From: a virus
Reading direction: 5' to 3' (one strand)
Virus record (IMG/VR): IMGVR_UViG_3300042294_003382
Coordinates: 1 to 42,156 of that record
Length of the DNA: 42,156 nucleotides
In this document: positions 5,576 through 42,000 of the stretch, piece after piece
How the letters are laid out: every line of letters starts with the position of its first letter
Position numbering within the stretch: position 1 is the stretch's first letter
Program-made: the position numbers and the translations under genes
Notes under the pieces: generated by a model
The model's database searches: none
Told to the model about the DNA's origin: nothing
What the model saw: the letters and a program-made list of their open reading frames with translations, nothing else

Positions 5576-5974
5576 ATGCTAAAAGTAGGAAATAAAATTT
5601 ACTTAAGTTGGGACGATGTGTCCCAACTAGTAGATAAATTATGTGAAAAAATTATTACTGAACAACCTAATATTGATTCAATATTTGGTTTAAAACGTGG
5701 TGGACTTATACCTGCTGTGATGGTATCACATAAGTTAGGTTTACCGTGGTCTGACGTAATGTTACCTAATACTTTAGTAGTAGATGATATTGCTGATACT
5801 GGAGTAACATTAAAAAATTGCATTGGAGGTTATACAGCAGTATTACATTATAAACCTCATACTTCATGTCATATCCCTAATTTATGGGCATCTATACATG
5901 AAGGAGATGAATGGATTATTTATCCATGGGAACGAAAAGATTCACAAACAATTCAAGATTACAAAAATTTATAA
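5576..5974 (+). CDS. Phosphoribosyltransferase
   Basis: 132 aa. The PRPP loop TLVVDDIADTGVTL at about residues 66-79 and the upstream FGLKRGGLIPAVMVSHKLG block are the signatures of type I phosphoribosyltransferases of the hypoxanthine/xanthine/guanine group. It is shorter than typical salvage enzymes (150-180 aa), with a trimmed hood region. It starts 1 base after folE in the nucleotide metabolism operon. The base used is not readable from the sequence; a purine is likely. Confidence 0.8.
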   Translation: MLKVGNKIYLSWDDVSQLVDKLCEKIITEQPNIDSIFGLKRGGLIPAVMVSHKLGLPWSDVMLPNTLVVDDIADTGVTLKNCIGGYTAVLHYKPHTSCHIPNLWASIHEGDEWIIYPWERKDSQTIQDYKNL

Positions 5975-5979
5975 TAGTT

Positions 5980-6486
5980 ATGATAACAGAACCAAGAGTA
6001 CCTTTTATTGATGAGGTAGAAGAATTTAATGCCGTAATGGGCAAACCAAACAATTATGAACCAGTTATCCCTCAAAGAAAAGAATGGGAATTTGTATACA
6101 ATTTCATCCTTGAAGAACTTGAAGAATATAGAGAAGCTTGCGAAAGAGGAGACATCGTTGAGGTTTTGGACGCTTTGTGTGATATTACTTATGTTGCCAC
6201 TGGGAACGGTACTATGTTACATGGCCTTAAGGATAAGATATGGCCAGCCTATCAAGAGGTTCAAGCGTCAAATTTATCTAAAGCTTGCAAAACAGAAGAG
6301 GAAGCAATCTCAACTGTCGCTAAAAGAAGCATCGAACAAGGTGAAGAATGCCATTACGAAAAAGTTGGAGCGTATTACATCGTTTATAGAACAAGAGACA
6401 GAAAAGTAATGAAAAATGTAAATTACTTTAGACCTAATTTAAGACAATTCTTCACTGAAGAAGATATTTACCAAAACAAAATTTAA
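5980..6486 (+). CDS. MazG-like nucleoside triphosphate pyrophosphohydrolase
   Basis: 168 aa from ATG 5980, which lies 5 bases after the previous stop; an upstream ATG at 5911 would overlap the phosphoribosyltransferase and adds unrelated sequence. EWEFVYNFILEELEEYREACERGDIVEVLDALCDITYVATGNG matches the all-alpha MazG/PRA-PH fold, with EExxE and ExxD metal-binding residues, and SNLSKACKTEEEA is the typical phage ending of that fold. It should hydrolyse (d)NTPs or related nucleotides to monophosphates and pyrophosphate. Such genes are common in T4-like marine phages. Confidence 0.82.
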   Translation: MITEPRVPFIDEVEEFNAVMGKPNNYEPVIPQRKEWEFVYNFILEELEEYREACERGDIVEVLDALCDITYVATGNGTMLHGLKDKIWPAYQEVQASNLSKACKTEEEAISTVAKRSIEQGEECHYEKVGAYYIVYRTRDRKVMKNVNYFRPNLRQFFTEEDIYQNKI

Positions 6487-38199: not shown

Positions 38200-38283
38200 G
38201 GAAGGCATCCGGCTGGATCAGGAGCGACTCTTGAAAAGTCGTAGCAGGTAATACTGTTGTGGGTTCGAGTCCCACGTCTTCCT
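38200..38283 (+). tRNA. tRNA-Ser(UGA)
   Basis: Acceptor GGAAGGC/GTCTTCC, anticodon arm CGACT-CTTGAAA-AGTCG, long variable arm, T-arm GTGGG-TTCGAGT-CCCAC, discriminator T then CA. A class II serine tRNA reading UCN. Confidence 0.93.
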
Positions 38284-38289
38284 CAATAT

Positions 38290-38361
38290 TGGCTTATAGT
38301 GTAACGGTTAGCACAAAACACTTTGACTGTTTTAGTCTAGGTTCGAATCCTAGTAAGCCAA
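38290..38361 (+). tRNA. tRNA-Gln(UUG)
   Basis: Acceptor TGGCTTA/TAAGCCA, anticodon arm AAACA-CTTTGAC-TGTTT, T-arm CTAGG-TTCGAAT-CCTAG, discriminator A then CA. Confidence 0.95.
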
Positions 38362-38384
38362 CAAATAATTGTAAGTAATGAAAA

Positions 38385-38544
38385 GCCCATCCCAACACCT
38401 GATCAGTTAGTAGGACGGTTAGTAAAGAAAGCATTATCAGTAAGTAGTGGAGAAATCCATATGGAGAAAACGATGCAAGACATGAGTACAGGGAACCAGC
38501 CCGATGGCTTTGCTTACGAATATTATAGTAGTTTTGAGATGGGC
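38385..38544 (+). ncRNA. Candidate structured RNA between tRNA-Gln and tRNA-Pro
   Basis: GCCCATC (38385-38391) can close onto GATGGGC (38538-38544). Inside are TGGA-GAAA-TCCA (38448-38459, a GNRA tetraloop hairpin) and GTAAG (38440-38444) with CTTAC (38513-38517). No tRNA shape and no ORF that avoids the next tRNA. The fold is less certain than for other segments. Confidence 0.35.
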
Positions 38545-38577
38545 GAATTCTACTTTAAAAAAATAATCCCTTCACCA

Positions 38578-38653
38578 CTGGTAGTAGAGGAGTCCGGTTT
38601 ATCTCGCTGGCCTTGGACGCTAGAGCACGCAGGTTCGAATCCTGCCTACCAGA
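38578..38653 (+). tRNA. tRNA-Pro(UGG)
   Basis: Acceptor CTGGTAG/CTACCAG, anticodon arm CTGGC-CTTGGAC-GCTAG, T-arm GCAGG-TTCGAAT-CCTGC, discriminator A then CA. Confidence 0.94.
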
Positions 38654-38659
38654 CAAATT

Positions 38660-38730
38660 GCCCTCTAGGCTTTAAAGTGAAGCACGATACTTTTAATATC
38701 GGGAAGAAGGAGCATTACCTTCAGGGGGTA
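38660..38730 (+). tRNA. Elbow-less tRNA-Lys(UUU)
   Basis: Every stem is in canonical register: acceptor GCCCTCT/AGGGGGT, AG linker, D-stem GCTT/AAGC, anticodon arm CGATA-CTTTTAA-TATCG with UUU, 4-base variable region, T-stem GAAGG/CCTTC, discriminator A then CA. The T-loop is AGCATTA instead of TTCRANN and the D-loop TAAAGTG lacks GG, so the usual D-T elbow contact cannot form. It is the only lysine tRNA in the array. Confidence 0.75.
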
Positions 38731-38735
38731 CAAAA

Positions 38736-38827
38736 GCTACATACACAACCTTACAATCTCTCAGTTAAAAGCTGTTGTAAGATTAAGTAATAAGCCAATA
38801 TGCTTATTAGTTGTGATTAGGTGTAGC
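38736..38827 (+). ncRNA. Candidate structured RNA, three-way junction
   Basis: Nested helices: GCTACA/TGTAGC (38736-38741, 38822-38827), CACAAC/GTTGTG (38744-38749, 38810-38815), then hairpins CTTACAA/TTGTAAG (38750-38756, 38775-38781) and AATAAG/CTTATT (38789-38794, 38803-38808). It fills the whole gap between tRNA-Lys and tRNA-Val. Confidence 0.5.
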
Positions 38828-38831
38828 ACCA

Positions 38832-38902
38832 GCCTCGTTGGCGTAATGGTAGCGTATTTGTTTTACATGCAAATGGTGATAGTTCGATTCTATCACGAGG
38901 TA
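38832..38902 (+). tRNA. tRNA-Val(UAC)
   Basis: Acceptor GCCTCGT/ACGAGGT with G1-U72, anticodon arm TTTGT-TTTACAT-GCAAA, T-arm GATAG-TTCGATT-CTATC, discriminator A then CA. Confidence 0.92.
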
Positions 38903-38908
38903 CAAATT

Positions 38909-38989
38909 GGGTAGTAAAAGTCGTTCGGATACGACAGCCGGTCTGTAAAATCGGTCCTCAAGGGAGTGGTTCGAGTCCACTGCTGCCCA
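38909..38989 (+). tRNA. tRNA-Tyr(GUA)
   Basis: Acceptor GGGTAGT/GCTGCCC, D-stem GTCG/CGAC, anticodon arm CCGGT-CTGTAAA-ATCGG, medium variable arm, T-arm AGTGG-TTCGAGT-CCACT, discriminator A then CA. Confidence 0.93.
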
Positions 38990-38990
38990 C

Positions 38991-39130
38991 AATGATAATG
39001 GTTTTCTCTATCTCTCGGATGTCGACAATCCAAGATAGGTTCAAGAATTCTGCACCCTCTGCCGAGGCCTCGTAAAACTACGATTAAGCAGTTAAGATTG
39101 GAGCGAGATGGGTACTCCAACATTATCATT
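38991..39130 (+). ncRNA. Large cloverleaf-shaped RNA
   Basis: AATGATAATG (38991-39000) pairs perfectly with CATTATCATT (39121-39130). Inside are three arms in series: CTATCT/AGATAG (39008-39013, 39033-39038) with inner GGAT/ATCC; CTGC/GCAG (39050-39053, 39088-39091) with inner TCGTA/TACGA; and TTGGAG/CTCCAA (39098-39103, 39115-39120). It ends 3 bases before tRNA-Phe. Not a tRNA: arm sizes differ and there is no TTCRA loop. Confidence 0.6.
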
Positions 39131-39133
39131 ATT

Positions 39134-39206
39134 GGGTCTTTTGTATAGCTGGTGCGTACGCTAGTCTGAAGAACTAGAGGAACAGGTTCAATTCCTGTAG
39201 GACCCA
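39134..39206 (+). tRNA. tRNA-Phe(GAA)
   Basis: Acceptor GGGTCTT/AGGACCC, anticodon arm CTAGT-CTGAAGA-ACTAG, T-arm ACAGG-TTCAATT-CCTGT, discriminator A, then CT rather than CA. Confidence 0.94.
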
Positions 39207-39219
39207 CTGTATCAACCTT

Positions 39220-39291
39220 GGACTGGTAGCTCAGAGGCAGAGCAAACGGCTGTTAACCGTTAGGCCGGGATTTCGAAATTCCCTCAGTCCG
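39220..39291 (+). tRNA. tRNA-Asn(GUU)
   Basis: Acceptor GGACTGG/TCAGTCC, D-stem GCTC/GAGC, anticodon arm AACGG-CTGTTAA-CCGTT, T-loop TTCGAAA with one mismatched T-stem pair, discriminator G then CA. Confidence 0.93.
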
Positions 39292-39299
39292 CAAAAATT

Positions 39300-39371
39300 G
39301 CTCCTATAGTAGAATGGTTAGCACACATCTCTGATAAGGATGAAATGGAGGTTCAATTCCTTCTAGGAGTA
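39300..39371 (+). tRNA. tRNA-Ile(GAU)
   Basis: Acceptor GCTCCTA/TAGGAGT with G1-U72, anticodon arm CATCT-CTGATAA-GGATG, T-arm GGAGG-TTCAATT-CCTTC, discriminator A then CA. Confidence 0.94.
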
Positions 39372-39378
39372 CAAAAAT

Positions 39379-39498
39379 GGTTCCTAAGATGAGGGTTTGT
39401 ATTAGCGCTAAATGATACAACTCTGAACTTTAGCATAATGGTTTGCGATTCTGTTTAGCGATGGAATGGAAGAGTGGGTTCGACTCCTACAGGAATTA
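39379..39498 (+). tRNA. tRNA-like gene with a 45-base insertion
   Basis: Acceptor GGTTCCT (39379-39385) pairs with AGGAATT (39491-39497), T-arm GTGGG-TTCGACT-CCTAC, discriminator A then CA. Between the 5' acceptor strand and a D-arm (GCA/TGC, TAATGGTT loop at 39436-39443) lies a hairpin at 39392-39424 (AGGG-T-TTGTAT/ATACAACTCT) whose loop starts TAGCGCTA. The anticodon arm ATTCT/GGAAT has a 10-base loop, so no anticodon is assigned. Confidence 0.5.
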
Positions 39499-39504
39499 CA
39501 AAAT

Positions 39505-39589
39505 GGAAAGTAAACTAACAAGGTGTTAGGATGTCCTGCTAAGACAATCGCTCGGTAAAACGGGTTCGTTTCGAGTACGATGCTTTCCT
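39505..39589 (+). tRNA. tRNA-Ser(GCU)
   Basis: Acceptor GGAAAGT/GCTTTCC, D-stem CTAA/TTAG, anticodon loop CTGCTAA on TGTC/GACA, long variable arm, T-loop TTCGAGT, discriminator T then CA. Reads AGY. Confidence 0.88.
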
Positions 39590-39594
39590 CAAAC

Positions 39595-39664
39595 ACTGAC
39601 TTGATCAGGTGATCGAAAATATCTCATAAGTATTTTCAGAGTGGATCGTTACCACTAGTCGGTA
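39595..39664 (+). tRNA. Abnormal tRNA with CAU anticodon
   Basis: Acceptor ACTGACT/AGTCGGT is fully paired, T-stem AGTGG/CCACT holds loop ATCGTTA rather than TTCRANN, the anticodon stem is 8 pairs long (GAAAATAT/GTATTTTC) around CTCATAA, and the D-arm is cut to ATC-AGGT-GAT. Total length is normal (70). Methionine or AUA-reading isoleucine. Confidence 0.6.
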
Positions 39665-39670
39665 CTATAT

Positions 39671-39742
39671 GGTGTTTCTAGCTTATTGGTAAAGCGCTTG
39701 ACTGTGAATCAGGAGAACAGGGTTCGATACCCGGTAACACCC
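39671..39742 (+). tRNA. tRNA-His(GUG)
   Basis: Anticodon arm CTTGA-CTGTGAA-TCAGG, D-stem GCTT/AAGC, T-loop TTCGATA. If the acceptor is read as GTGTTTC/GTAACAC, G at 39671 is the encoded G-1 opposite C73 (39741) and the usual CA follows. Confidence 0.9.
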
Positions 39743-39747
39743 AAAAT

Positions 39748-39827
39748 GCCCCTGTGGTGAAAATGGTAAACACACCAGGCTTAAAACTTGGCGCTCAGGC
39801 TTGCTGGTTCGACTCCAGTCAGGGGTA
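39748..39827 (+). tRNA. tRNA-Leu(UAA)
   Basis: Acceptor GCCCCTG/CAGGGGT with G1-U72, anticodon arm CCAGG-CTTAAAA-CTTGG, class II variable arm, T-arm GCTGG-TTCGACT-CCAGT, discriminator A then CA. Confidence 0.94.
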
Positions 39828-39834
39828 CAAAAAA

Positions 39835-39902
39835 ATCGCTGATGTCCTCATACGTTCGACATTGAAGATGTGTAATGATATCAACATCGTAGGTTAAGCG
39901 AT
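39835..39902 (+). ncRNA. Candidate structured RNA, closed two-hairpin element
   Basis: ATCGCT (39835-39840) pairs with AGCGAT (39897-39902), enclosing ATGTC/GACAT (39842-39846, 39858-39862) and GATGT/ACATC (39867-39871, 39884-39888). Fills the gap between tRNA-Leu and tRNA-Arg; no tRNA loops. Confidence 0.45.
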
Positions 39903-39913
39903 ATCCTACAATT

Positions 39914-39985
39914 GGTCTTATAGTTTAATTGGAAAAACTTATCGCTACGAACGATAGAACAAAGGTTCGATCCCTTTTAAGACCT
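39914..39985 (+). tRNA. tRNA-Arg(ACG)
   Basis: Acceptor GGTCTTA/TAAGACC, D-stem GTTT/AAAC, anticodon arm TATCG-CTACGAA-CGATA, T-arm AAAGG-TTCGATC-CCTTT, discriminator T then CA. A34 needs host deamination to inosine to read CGN. Confidence 0.94.
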
Positions 39986-39990
39986 CAACT

Positions 39991-40062
39991 GCCCGTATAG
40001 TTTAATTGGAAGAACTAAACGCTTCTAACGTTTCAGTCCTGGTTCAAGTCCAGGTATGGGTT
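39991..40062 (+). tRNA. tRNA-Arg(UCU)
   Basis: Acceptor GCCCGTA/TATGGGT with G1-U72, anticodon arm AAACG-CTTCTAA-CGTTT, T-arm CCTGG-TTCAAGT-CCAGG, discriminator T then CA. Confidence 0.94.
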
Positions 40063-40068
40063 CAAAAT

Positions 40069-40139
40069 GCGTTCCGCAGACAAGGTGTCGGTATGGTCTC
40101 CAAAACTACTACGGCGGGGTTCGATTCCTCGGGTTCGCG
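40069..40139 (+). tRNA. tRNA-Trp(CCA), acceptor with tandem mismatch
   Basis: Anticodon loop CTCCAAA on TGGT/ACTA, T-arm CGGGG-TTCGATT-CCTCG, discriminator G as usual for Trp, then CA. Acceptor GCGTTCC/GGTTCGC pairs except two U-U mismatches at positions 4 and 5. Confidence 0.85.
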
Positions 40140-40172
40140 CAAATATATTGTTTCATTAAAAAATTAAAAATC

Positions 40173-40679
40173 ATGAGCAAGTACCAAAAAGCATTAGTAG
40201 TGGATGCAAGCTTCACAGCAAGATCAGTTATAAGCACAGAACGAGCGTTCGTGATTTTTTATAAGGGTAATGCTGAAGTAATAGCAGAACACCCAGAAAC
40301 ATTCAGTTTAATTAATCCTGAATTAACTATTTACAAACCTTCTATTATTAGAGTAGCTAAGTATGTAAAACAAAACATTCAAAAAGTACCTCTAACAAGA
40401 GAAAATGTTTATCGAAGAGATAATTATGAGTGTGTTTATTGTGGTTGTTCAAATCAAAAAATACTAACATTAGATCACGTTGTTCCTCAATCAAAAGGAG
40501 GAAAAGATAGTTGGGACAATTTAGTAACAGCTTGCAGACCATGTAACCATGAAAAAGCAGATTTAACATTAGAGGAATATGGTAAAGAAATTCCAGAACC
40601 AAAAAGACCTCACTATTTAATGTTAATGAGAACTATGACGTACATACCAAGAGAATGGGAAACATTTTTATTCTTTTAG
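40173..40679 (+). CDS. HNH endonuclease inserted in the tRNA island
   Basis: 168 aa from ATG 40173; the open frame extends into tRNA genes upstream but those codons are not protein. NYECVYCGCSN (C87, C90), ILTLDHVVPQSKGGKDSWDNLVTA (D101, H102, N116) and CRPCNHEKAD (C121, C124, H126) make a complete HNH nuclease domain with zinc sites. The N-terminal 80 residues (VVDASFTARSVISTERAFVIFYKGNAEVI) match a module common before HNH domains in Bacteroidetes and phage proteins. Location between tRNA clusters suggests a homing endonuclease. It ends TAG, and a new promoter overlaps its stop. Confidence 0.88.
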   Translation: MSKYQKALVVDASFTARSVISTERAFVIFYKGNAEVIAEHPETFSLINPELTIYKPSIIRVAKYVKQNIQKVPLTRENVYRRDNYECVYCGCSNQKILTLDHVVPQSKGGKDSWDNLVTACRPCNHEKADLTLEEYGKEIPEPKRPHYLMLMRTMTYIPREWETFLFF

Positions 40680-40710
40680 TTGGAAAACTAAAAATAAGTT
40701 CATATATTTA
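40680..40710 (+). promoter_or_regulatory. Promoter of the second tRNA cluster
   Basis: TTG at 40680-40682, 20 bases, TATATTTA at 40703-40710. The predicted start lies only a few bases before tRNA-Cys at 40721. Confidence 0.78.
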
Positions 40711-40720
40711 AGTATAAGAA

Positions 40721-40790
40721 GACCGAGTTGACCATGGAGGTCGGCAGGATTGCAAACTCTGCAGAGTAAGTTCGATTCTTACCTTGACCT
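40721..40790 (+). tRNA. tRNA-Cys(GCA), acceptor with tandem mismatch
   Basis: Anticodon loop TTGCAAA on CAGGA/CTCTG, D-stem GACC/GGTC with a 5-base loop, T-arm GTAAG-TTCGATT-CTTAC, discriminator T then CA. Acceptor GACCGAG/CTTGACC pairs except A-C and C-A at positions 2 and 3. Confidence 0.82.
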
Positions 40791-40804
40791 CATTTAAGGT
40801 TCGA

Positions 40805-40881
40805 CCCTCTACCAAATGTGTTACACCCACAAATGGACATCATGAGGGAGCTACCGATTGATAAGTGGTCGCACACGCGAC
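40805..40881 (+). ncRNA. Candidate structured RNA, two hairpins
   Basis: CCCTC/GAGGG (40805-40809, 40844-40848) encloses a 9-position hairpin CCAAATGTG/CACAAATGG (40812-40820, 40828-40836) with tandem A-A mismatches and loop TTACACC. A second hairpin GTCGC-ACAC-GCGAC sits at 40868-40881. Lies between tRNA-Cys and tRNA-Leu(UAG). Confidence 0.4.
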
Positions 40882-40885
40882 AAAT

Positions 40886-40959
40886 GCCTAGGTGGTGGAA
40901 TTGGAATACACGGCGGCCTTAGAACCCGTCTATTGAGAGTTCGAGTCTCTCCTTAGGTA
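40886..40959 (+). tRNA. tRNA-Leu(UAG) with short variable arm
   Basis: Acceptor GCCTAGG/CTTAGGT with G1-U72, anticodon loop CTTAGAA, T-arm GAGAG-TTCGAGT-CTCTC, discriminator A then CA. The variable region is only about 5 bases, unlike class II leucine tRNAs. Confidence 0.85.
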
Positions 40960-40963
40960 CAAA

Positions 40964-41030
40964 TTAGAGTTAGCTTATAGTAAAGCAGCAGGGGCTAACC
41001 TGCAGAACGGATACGAAAACCGGCTCTAAT
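40964..41030 (+). tRNA. Elbow-less tRNA-like cloverleaf
   Basis: Acceptor TTAGAGT/GCTCTAA (extendable to 9 pairs), TA linker, D-stem GCTT/AAGC with 6-base loop ATAGTA, arm GCAGG-GGCTAA-CCTGC with a 6-base loop, variable AGAA, T-arm CGG-ATACGAAAA-CCG. No GG in the D-loop, no TTCRA in the T-loop and no U33, so it may not decode. Confidence 0.5.
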
Positions 41031-41035
41031 TATCT

Positions 41036-41109
41036 GCTCCCGACGCACAAATGGTGGTGCACCGGATTTGTAACCCGGAATAGAGCCAGTTCGATCCTGG
41101 CCGGGAGCT
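41036..41109 (+). tRNA. tRNA-Thr(UGU)
   Basis: Acceptor GCTCCCG/CGGGAGC, D-stem GCAC/GTGC, anticodon loop TTTGTAA on CCGG/CCGG, T-arm GCCAG-TTCGATC-CTGGC, discriminator T then CA. Confidence 0.94.
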
Positions 41110-41113
41110 CAGC

Positions 41114-41265
41114 AGTTATCTGAACTAGCACTAGGACGATAACTACCAACGGAGGAAGCTAGTCTCACGGTTGGTCCTGTAGGTTGTGGTCACCCGTAAA
41201 TCCACATAAAAAGAACTCCTACCAGGTAAAGTAGGTGTATGGCACTTTTCAGCCTAAGCTTTACC
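41114..41265 (+). ncRNA. Candidate structured RNA, four abutting hairpins
   Basis: AGTTATC/GATAACT (41114-41120, 41138-41144), ACCAAC/GTTGGT (41145-41150, 41170-41175), CCTGTAGG/CCTACCAGG with one bulge (41176-41183, 41218-41226) enclosing TGTGG/CCACA, and GTAAAG/CTTTAC (41226-41231, 41259-41264) enclosing TAGG/CCTA. The hairpins abut with almost no spacer; the third and fourth share one base. Confidence 0.5.
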
Positions 41266-41270
41266 AAACT

Positions 41271-41342
41271 GCGACTATCGTATAATGGTCATTACTTTAG
41301 ACTTCCAATCTAAAGATGAGAGTTCGATTCTCTCTAGTCGCT
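41271..41342 (+). tRNA. tRNA-Gly(UCC)
   Basis: Acceptor GCGACTA/TAGTCGC, anticodon arm TTAGA-CTTCCAA-TCTAA, T-arm GAGAG-TTCGATT-CTCTC, discriminator T then CA. Confidence 0.95.
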
Positions 41343-41350
41343 CAAGGGTG

Positions 41351-41389
41351 TGTGGGAACCCAAGAATATGTGATGAACATATACCCACA
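41351..41389 (+). ncRNA. Inter-tRNA hairpin
   Basis: TGTGGG (41351-41356) pairs with CCCACA (41384-41389) and encloses ATATGT-GATGA-ACATAT (41366-41382). Sits between tRNA-Gly and tRNA-Glu; could be a processing signal or small RNA. Confidence 0.4.
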
Positions 41390-41393
41390 ATCT

Positions 41394-41465
41394 GCTGCGT
41401 TAGTGAAGGGGTTAACACGTATCACTTTCTATGATAAGGCACGGGTTCGAATCCCGTACGCAGTA
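41394..41465 (+). tRNA. tRNA-Glu(UUC)
   Basis: Acceptor GCTGCGT/ACGCAGT with G1-U72, anticodon arm TATCA-CTTTCTA-TGATA, T-arm ACGGG-TTCGAAT-CCCGT, discriminator A then CA. Confidence 0.94.
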
Positions 41466-41471
41466 CAATAA

Positions 41472-41543
41472 GGGGCTATAGTGAAATTGGCATCACGATA
41501 GATTTGCATTCTGTTATTCCGGGTTCGAATCCCGGTAGCTCCA
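41472..41543 (+). tRNA. tRNA-Ala(UGC)
   Basis: Acceptor GGGGCTA/TAGCTCC, anticodon arm ATAGA-TTTGCAT-TCTGT, T-arm CCGGG-TTCGAAT-CCCGG, discriminator A then CA. The G3 position pairs with U70, the usual alanine identity signal. Confidence 0.95.
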
Positions 41544-41549
41544 CAATAA

Positions 41550-41621
41550 GGTCTATTCGTTCAACGGCTAGGATACTACCCTGTCACGGTAGGGATGAGA
41601 GTTCGATTCTCTCATAGACCG
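41550..41621 (+). tRNA. tRNA-Asp(GUC)
   Basis: Acceptor GGTCTAT/ATAGACC, anticodon arm CTACC-CTGTCAC-GGTAG, T-arm GAGAG-TTCGATT-CTCTC, discriminator G, then CT. Confidence 0.95.
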
Positions 41622-41629
41622 CTAACATG

Positions 41630-41702
41630 AGCGTTGAAGCACAATTGGACGTGCAACCGGTATAAGGCCGGTGGGATATAGGTTCGAATCCTATCTCTGC
41701 TC
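41630..41702 (+). tRNA. tRNA of unclear identity, no U33
   Basis: D-stem GCAC/GTGC, T-arm ATAGG-TTCGAAT-CCTAT and arm ACCGG-TATAAGG-CCGGT are perfect, discriminator C then CA. The anticodon loop has A at position 33 where tRNAs have U. Acceptor AGCGTTG/CTCTGCT has mismatches at positions 5 and 6. By position the triplet is UAA; an AUA-reading role is another guess. Confidence 0.6.
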
Positions 41703-41712
41703 CAAATTAAAC

Positions 41713-41782
41713 TGCGTTAAAGTGTAAAGGTTGCATCCTGGTCTCATAAGCCAGGGGGGTGGTTCGAGTCCACGCTACGCTA
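41713..41782 (+). tRNA. tRNA with CAU anticodon (Met or Ile2), imperfect acceptor
   Basis: Anticodon arm CTGGT-CTCATAA-GCCAG, T-arm GTGG-TTCGAGT-CCAC, then CA at the 3' end. The acceptor pairs only through GCGT/ACGC with mismatches at the ends, so exact ends are uncertain. Unpaired ends would fit an initiator but the anticodon stem lacks the three G-C pairs. Confidence 0.75.
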
Positions 41783-41786
41783 CAAA

Positions 41787-41897
41787 GAACTAAATGGCGG
41801 TGTCAGGCACCCACTGCAGAGGGTACAAAGAAGAACCTGCTTTATACAGTGTGAAAGATGGTTAACGTGTCTTTTCGTCCTATAACACATTTAGTTT
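41787..41897 (+). ncRNA. Large cloverleaf-shaped RNA, second example
   Basis: AACTAAATG (41788-41796) pairs perfectly with CATTTAGTT (41888-41896), plus a G-U pair outside. Three arms follow: GGTG-TCAGG-CACC (41799-41811), CACTG/CAGTG (41812-41816, 41847-41851) with inner CAG/CTG, and GAAAGA/TCTTTTC (41853-41858, 41870-41876). Same overall plan as 38991-39130, with different sequence. Confidence 0.55.
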
Positions 41898-41901
41898 ATT
41901 T

Positions 41902-41975
41902 GTCCTTTTAGCTCAGTTGGTCAGAGCAGCTCGCTCATAACGAGAAGGTCACAGGTTCGAGCCCTGTATAGGACA
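41902..41975 (+). tRNA. tRNA-Met or tRNA-Ile2 (CAU)
   Basis: Acceptor GTCCTTT/ATAGGAC with one mismatch, D-arm GCTCAGTTGGTCAGAGC, anticodon loop CTCATAA on CTCG/CGAG, T-arm ACAGG-TTCGAGC-CCTGT, discriminator A then CA. The most conventional of the three CAU tRNAs. Confidence 0.92.
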
Positions 41976-42000
41976 CAAAATTTTATCCAATATTTTAACA

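Follow-up and report, generated by a model that had tools for sequence, protein, structure and literature searches.

The window analyzed here is the whole of a 42,156-nt (42-kb) uncultivated virus record, which encodes a T4-type DNA polymerase and ends in a one-strand array of at least 21 tRNA genes. A 140-nt element (38991-39130, + strand) lies in this array between the tRNA-Tyr and tRNA-Phe genes of the uncultivated phage. Its 5′ end is flush with tRNA-Tyr, which ends at 38990, and its 3′ end falls 3-4 nt before tRNA-Phe, which starts at 39134. The repeats that close it, AATGATAATG (38991-39000) and CATTATCATT (39121-39130), are both present and perfectly complementary, bearing out the perfect 10-pair helix given in a preliminary description of the locus, with the qualification that the outermost pair, 38991/39130, is not conserved in the copy carried by a second contig, L005.

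Table 1. Coordinates of the 140-nt RNA, its predicted helices and its flanking genes in the window.
Feature	Position	Strand	Evidence
Upstream tRNA-Tyr	38909..38990	+	ARAGORN; abuts the RNA
Whole RNA element	38991..39130 (CM match 38992-39129)	+	covariance model (CM) R1, 158 bits, E 4e-38; window in training set
P1 5′ strand (closing helix)	38992..39000	+	pairs with 39121-39129; 8/9 pairs covary; RNAalifold, structure-free alignment
P2 5′ strand GNNUUC (base of arm 1)	39001..39006	+	pairs with 39045-39050; 4/4 modelled pairs covary
P3 5′ strand (arm 1)	39008..39013	+	pairs with 39033-39038; 6/6 pairs covary
P4 hairpin GGAU-GUCGACA-AUCC	39017..39031	+	loop 39021-39027 holds palindrome GUCGAC
P3 3′ strand	39033..39038	+	pairs with 39008-39013
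P2 3′ strand GAANNC	39045..39050	+	pairs with 39001-39006
ACCC, candidate pseudoknot with GGGU 39110-39113 (P6 loop)	39054..39057	+	candidate, seen in sequence
P5 5′ strand CUGC (arm 2)	39059..39062	+	pairs with 39088-39091; 99.6% of cells paired; 2 pairs covary
Loop-less palindrome CGAGGCCUCG, proposed dimer interface	39063..39072	+	palindromic in 80/88 distinct sequences
P5b hairpin UCGUA-AAAC-UACGA	39070..39083	+	overlaps 3′ half of palindrome; partly conserved
P5 3′ strand GCAG	39088..39091	+	pairs with 39059-39062
P6 hairpin (arm 3), 11-nt loop CGAGAYGGGUA	39098..39120	+	5/6 pairs covary; inner pairs also on structure-free alignment
P1 3′ strand	39121..39129	+	pairs with 38992-39000
Downstream tRNA-Phe	39134..39207	+	ARAGORN, Rfam

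The element had been likened to a giant tRNA without tRNA loops that follows the plan of no known RNA family. TRNA loops are indeed absent, and the likeness is one of outline, there being no T-arm, anticodon arm or CCA. In the window and in 13 related loci no Rfam 15 family reached its gathering cut-off at the element, and for the window copy there was no match even with E values up to 10, in agreement with the second part of that claim. Folding against shuffled sequence, which had been proposed as a deciding check, was marginal. RNAfold gave −36.5 kcal/mol for the element and −29.9 ± 3.7 for shuffles (z −1.78), with 9 of 200 shuffles as good, so that the energy alone is weak evidence for structure. 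The best structure of the single sequence breaks arm 1 in favor of other pairing and contradicts the covariation found there, and we rejected single-sequence folding as proof of structure on both counts.

A family of structured RNAs in phage tRNA arrays

An 18-mer of the element led to one further contig, L005, in which the copy occupies the same Tyr-Phe slot and is identical at 138/140 positions, though the adjacent tRNAs are just 88-93% identical. A 20-mer from arm 2 matched 55 viral contigs, and their alignment showed compensating changes; L118 has the 20-mer by chance, resembles coding sequence at that point and yielded no copy when the whole record was searched. A covariance model (CM) built from 16 sequences, the window among them, matched 61 loci, six of which lack the exact 20-mer and were found by another pattern. 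With a degenerate 26-mer over arm 3 at least 119 contigs were matched, and the fetched loci of the last two batches gave CM matches in 83/83 and 25/25 cases. Pattern scans and CM together bring the family to at least 142 uncultivated-phage contigs including the window, some of them longer than 200 kb and all drawn from one collection of uncultivated viruses. There is one copy per record in 21/21 positive records searched whole, and none in 28 related records searched whole. BLAST of the element against isolate phage records returned nothing meaningful, and species-genome contigs held no exact match to the 20-mer or the 26-mer. The 140-nt RNA is thus a member of a widespread RNA family that was previously unlisted, the literature being covered as open-access text.

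The family comparison also supplied the evidence for structure. The fold predicted from it consists of a closing helix (P1), arm 1 (P2-P3-P4), arm 2 (P5 with an optional P5b) and arm 3 (P6). Among 69 distinct sequences, 33 of the 38 pairs changed on both sides while 95.4% of cells remained standard pairs, and two-sided cells numbered 464, compared with 118 after shuffling; when partners were slid out of register, pairing fell from 95.4% to 30-50%. Family sets of 37-69 distinct sequences gave 27-33 two-sided pairs out of 38 (0/500 shuffles), with the limits that alignments A4 and A6 were fitted to the model, and hence lean toward it, and that the shuffles ignore shared ancestry. RNAalifold on an unfitted, structure-free MAFFT alignment recovered three of the helices, P1 and P6 with covariation and also P5b, and the structure-free MAFFT alignment A3 contained 15 covarying pairs (0/500 shuffles). 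Because the closing helix and arms are kept through two-sided changes, the element goes beyond chance pairing and is confirmed as a real structured RNA that is not confined to the window. Its internal loops are more constrained than P1, which is the most variable part and yet stays paired.

All three arms of the preliminary description exist and are supported by covariation; what had to be revised was the pairing and length of arm 2. The helix P5 covaries as CUGC/GCAG, CAGC/GCUG, GUGC/GCAC and CGGC/GCCG, and this places the partner of GCAG at the second CUGC (39059-39062) instead of the first, whose pairing is lost in L084 and L107. Arm 2 is therefore about 33 nt long, not 42. Judged from the sequence, the ACCC upstream of P5 may form a pseudoknot with the GGGU of the P6 loop; the core positions vary too little for covariation to bear on it.

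L002, the closest relative that we found, shares the array but has a Tyr-Phe gap of only 4 nt, a natural empty site, and in other relatives the slot holds either nothing or 61-149 nt of other sequence. Among relatives chosen by the HNH gene of the array (L006-L057), no carrier was found at the loci searched, and only the window and L005 carry the RNA. Since close relatives with the same array are without it, the RNA is dispensable. Different elements occupy the slot in L025 (2626-2771) and L032 (3201-3349), where the insert is about 147 nt, and in L023 (3309-3446) and L034 (3504-3605), which have one other element in common. The DNA polymerases of two carriers are 39% identical to that of the window, and contigs of 250-318 kb gave no matching polymerase, which is weak evidence given that many records are fragments; from these differences it appears that more than one phage lineage carries the RNA. 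In three other contigs the proteins encoded near it were without a match among isolate phages.

We also examined the setting of the RNA at 118 loci. tRNA genes were present on the fetched stretch in 117 of them, the exception being a 1.65-kb piece, and 1701 tRNAs lay on the strand of the RNA and 0 on the opposite strand. The upstream tRNA was within 2 nt in 52 loci and the downstream tRNA within 9 nt in 70, with about 20 different tRNA-tRNA slots occupied. Where tRNAs flank the RNA, we infer by analogy with established tRNA processing that both of its ends are set by tRNA maturation. Copies that no tRNA abuts have P1 extended by complementary flanks, e.g. AATA..TATT. Seven loci, which fall into two sequence groups, have a Bacteroidota-type box (TAnnTTTG) that ends 4-7 nt before the RNA, consistent with a transcription start near the RNA 5′ end.

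The array as a whole is a mosaic, in which many inter-tRNA elements recur in relatives at 73-100% identity. Those at 38380-38570, 38733-38832, 39829-39913, 41110-41270, 41343-41394 and 41783-41901 do so, each with its own pattern of presence and absence. Element E6 (40792-40885), a structured element after tRNA-Cys, recurs at 84-96% identity in dozens of contigs, and in the isolate Flavobacterium phage immuto, whose annotation shows part of it as a hypothetical protein, the identity is 93%; this match and the TAnnTTTG boxes suggest that these are phages of Flavobacteriia. A second apparently new RNA family (about 72 nt, more than 50 related loci) is represented at 40963-41031, between tRNA-Leu and tRNA-Thr, by a tRNA-sized four-way junction with a D-arm-like GCTTATAGTAAAGC and no T-loop; 9 of its 20 pairs covary, and the stem of its anticodon arm is swapped wholesale with pairing preserved. 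At 39376-39503 lies a tRNA-like element of about 122 nt that has an acceptor stem and T-arm, with a large insert replacing the D and anticodon arms. Its outline is like that of T4 rnaC, and it is identical at 128/128 positions in L002 despite differing neighbor tRNAs.

Most of the window's tRNA genes (38200-41976) are followed by N-CA and not N-CCA, while CCA is found in L082-class arrays. The tRNA-Met(cat)-like gene at 39595-39665 lacks the T-loop consensus (GATCGTTACCACT), and two loosely similar copies lie on the minus strand of L005. An HNH endonuclease gene inside the array (40173-40679) has relatives in about 50 viral contigs, mostly in similar arrays. Other arrays that carry the 140-nt RNA include that of L105, with a near-threshold match to the Rfam freshwater-1 RNA at 1616-1677 (67.5 bits, cut-off 72), and the contig L148, with a match to tmRNA (RF00023) at 5724-6218 (68.5 bits) that ARAGORN did not call. 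In L081, L088, L107 and L128 the motif GTGTTGTTCCCTTGAGAAAGGAA recurs just 3′ of the RNA and is perhaps a further array RNA.

Palindromes and self-pairing

A 10-nt palindrome, the most unusual feature of the RNA, adjoins the 5′ strand of P5 without a linker; its complementary halves follow one another with no intervening loop. The covariance model had not included it. Of 88 distinct sequences, 80 keep the palindrome (75 of them at exactly 10 nt, the other 5 enlarged by a single central base) under 18 spellings, e.g. CGATGCATCG, CTGGGCCCAG, CAGTGCACTG and CAACGCGTTG, and the remaining 8 have lost just the outer pair. Allowing G-U, 57 of 69 sequences are palindromic, compared with a mean of 18.7 and a maximum of 31 when halves were re-dealt in 2000 trials; on the model-fitted alignment A4 (37 distinct sequences) 3 of the 5 pairs are two-sided and 99.5% of cells paired. 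The isolated duplex is predicted at −14.5 to −20.9 kcal/mol. A hairpin requires about three or more loop bases. Lacking a loop, the halves are unable to pair within one molecule and can pair only with a second one, which suggests that pairing between two copies of the RNA is the simple explanation of the conservation. At the level of sequence the element has what characterizes a homodimerizing RNA, in that compensatory changes preserve a self-complementary interface.

The loop of arm 1 holds GUCGAC in 63 of 69 distinct sequences. As this motif is nearly invariant, the case that it pairs lies in one replacement, GUGCAC in L178, and one replaced arm, that of the L082 class, which has another hairpin with GCGC in its loop. 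An anticodon-like reading of the 7-nt loop GUCGACA was rejected, since L116 and the L082 class change the context of the loop and still have a palindrome. Of 27 distinct variants, 19 keep P5b pairing (shuffled mean 11.5, maximum 17), and covariation of P5b could account for part of the conservation in the 3′ half of the 10-nt palindrome; the 8 variants without P5b pairing still keep the palindrome. Because P5b uses the last palindrome bases, competition between monomer and dimer is possible.

Proposed mechanism and its rivals

On balance we consider it probable, with some reserve, that the element is a self-pairing RNA acting in trans, as a homodimer or oligomer, for which we infer transcription, processing and dimerization from the sequence comparisons. 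A noncoding RNA of about 137 nt would be transcribed within the tRNA array, as one of its units. Maturation of the upstream tRNA at its 3′ end would fix where this RNA begins, and RNase P cleavage at the downstream tRNA where it stops; for copies without flanking tRNAs, the ends would come from a promoter or from the RNA's own extended P1 duplex. Once freed, it would fold into the closing helix and three arms. The 10-nt palindrome next to P5 would then pair with the same segment of a second copy, and P5, the dimer duplex and the partner's P5 could form a continuous stack of about 18 bp. In arm 1, the GUCGAC loop may kiss another GUCGAC loop, and P5b, where present, would mask half of the palindrome and set monomer against dimer.

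We suggest more tentatively, as a reading less likely than not, that an RNA with two self-complementary interfaces may form either a closed dimer or a larger particle made of RNA alone, with P5b competing against the palindrome as the switch. Least certain is the job of the dimer; the role that we favor, itself doubtful, is that it might bind a host factor with two-fold symmetry that takes part in translation or tRNA metabolism, as a decoy or scaffold during takeover. If the reading with two interfaces is true, a palindrome that is free in sequence and yet self-matching would be a private self-recognition code for each phage lineage, and the RNAs of co-infecting phages would pair poorly with one another.

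The main rivals are a cis-acting module and a mobile element. In the former the RNA would serve the polycistronic tRNA transcript as a module for processing or spacing, insulating its neighbors or presenting RNase sites and functionless after release. Its flush position between tRNAs in many contigs fits such a role, as do the closing helix being the most variable but paired part and the lengthening of that helix by complementary flanks (AATA..TATT) where no tRNA abuts. We nevertheless consider a cis-acting role unlikely: the internal loops are under more constraint than P1, close relatives manage without the RNA, the palindrome would have no cis role, and a promoter box and not a tRNA precedes some copies. 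Clearly less probable is a selfish or mobile DNA element moving from one phage tRNA array to another, with inverted P1 ends and the central palindrome serving as DNA signals. It would explain the roughly 20 slots, the presence/absence polymorphism and the lack of a fixed neighbor, but each positive record has a single copy, always on the tRNA strand, there is no long open frame on the + strand, and comparison with the L002 empty site reveals no flanking duplication by eye. The ends and palindrome change letters yet keep pairing, and such freedom of sequence speaks against a protein-binding DNA site.

That the element is a degenerate tRNA, or a truncated tmRNA reduced to a tag region without a tRNA domain, seems to us very improbable. 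The commonest variant does resemble the tag region of E. coli tmRNA (GCCGAGG..CCTCGTAAAA..ACTACG.TT.AGCAG), but the local alignment score of 32.5-35.5 is inside the shuffled range (mean 23.4, maximum 42), divergent members lose both the tag-like letters and the reading frame, and a phage contig with the RNA, L148, carries a separate tmRNA match. We rejected assignment to tmRNA (RF00023), there being no CM match at the element in the window or relatives and no tag frame kept across members, and likewise to tRNA (RF00005), since neither ARAGORN nor Rfam calls one at 38991-39130 and the P6 loop CGAGAYGGGUA is not a T-loop. Membership in GOLLD or ROOL was rejected on full Rfam 15 scans of the window and 13 related loci, which gave no match to either, and homology to T4 rnaC and rnaD on a CM search of the T4 tRNA cluster (L003), which found nothing.

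Comparison with known RNAs

The homodimer or oligomer that we favor can be set beside several known RNAs. GOLLD and ROOL, phage RNAs whose function is unknown and which often lie close to tRNA islands, form homo-oligomeric cages with kissing loops by cryo-EM (PMC12286853). The 140-nt RNA shares their setting, and an oligomer is plausible for it too, as judged from its palindromes; GOLLD and ROOL are far larger, however (GOLLD often exceeds 800 nt), and have other folds. In the dimer-initiation loops of retroviruses, RNA homodimers begin at a self-complementary loop, which can go over into an extended duplex. Those loops are part of a viral genome, whereas the 140-nt RNA is free-standing and its palindrome is free in sequence and contiguous with a stem. 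OLE RNA is much larger, has another fold and is not known from phage arrays. This structured RNA of bacteria dimerizes as RNA alone (PMC12286853).

The likeness to tmRNA is a superficial one of the commonest variant to its tag region, the 140-nt RNA having no tRNA domain, conserved tag frame or Rfam match. Similar in size are the species 1 and 2 RNAs of T4 (rnaC, 139 nt, and rnaD, 119 nt), small stable RNAs within a phage tRNA cluster. rnaC, however, ends in a T-arm (CCGGGTTCGAATCCCGG) and an acceptor-like stem. Judged by its location, the 140-nt RNA may likewise accumulate as a stable RNA cut from the transcript of a tRNA cluster. The present family, with a covariation-supported structure and well over 100 members, joins the poorly understood cargo of phage tRNA arrays, and the non-tRNA gaps in such arrays should not be dismissed as spacer. 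T4 rnaC and rnaD, GOLLD and ROOL already raise the question of what this cargo does, and a conserved segment that can pair with itself opens the question to direct test.
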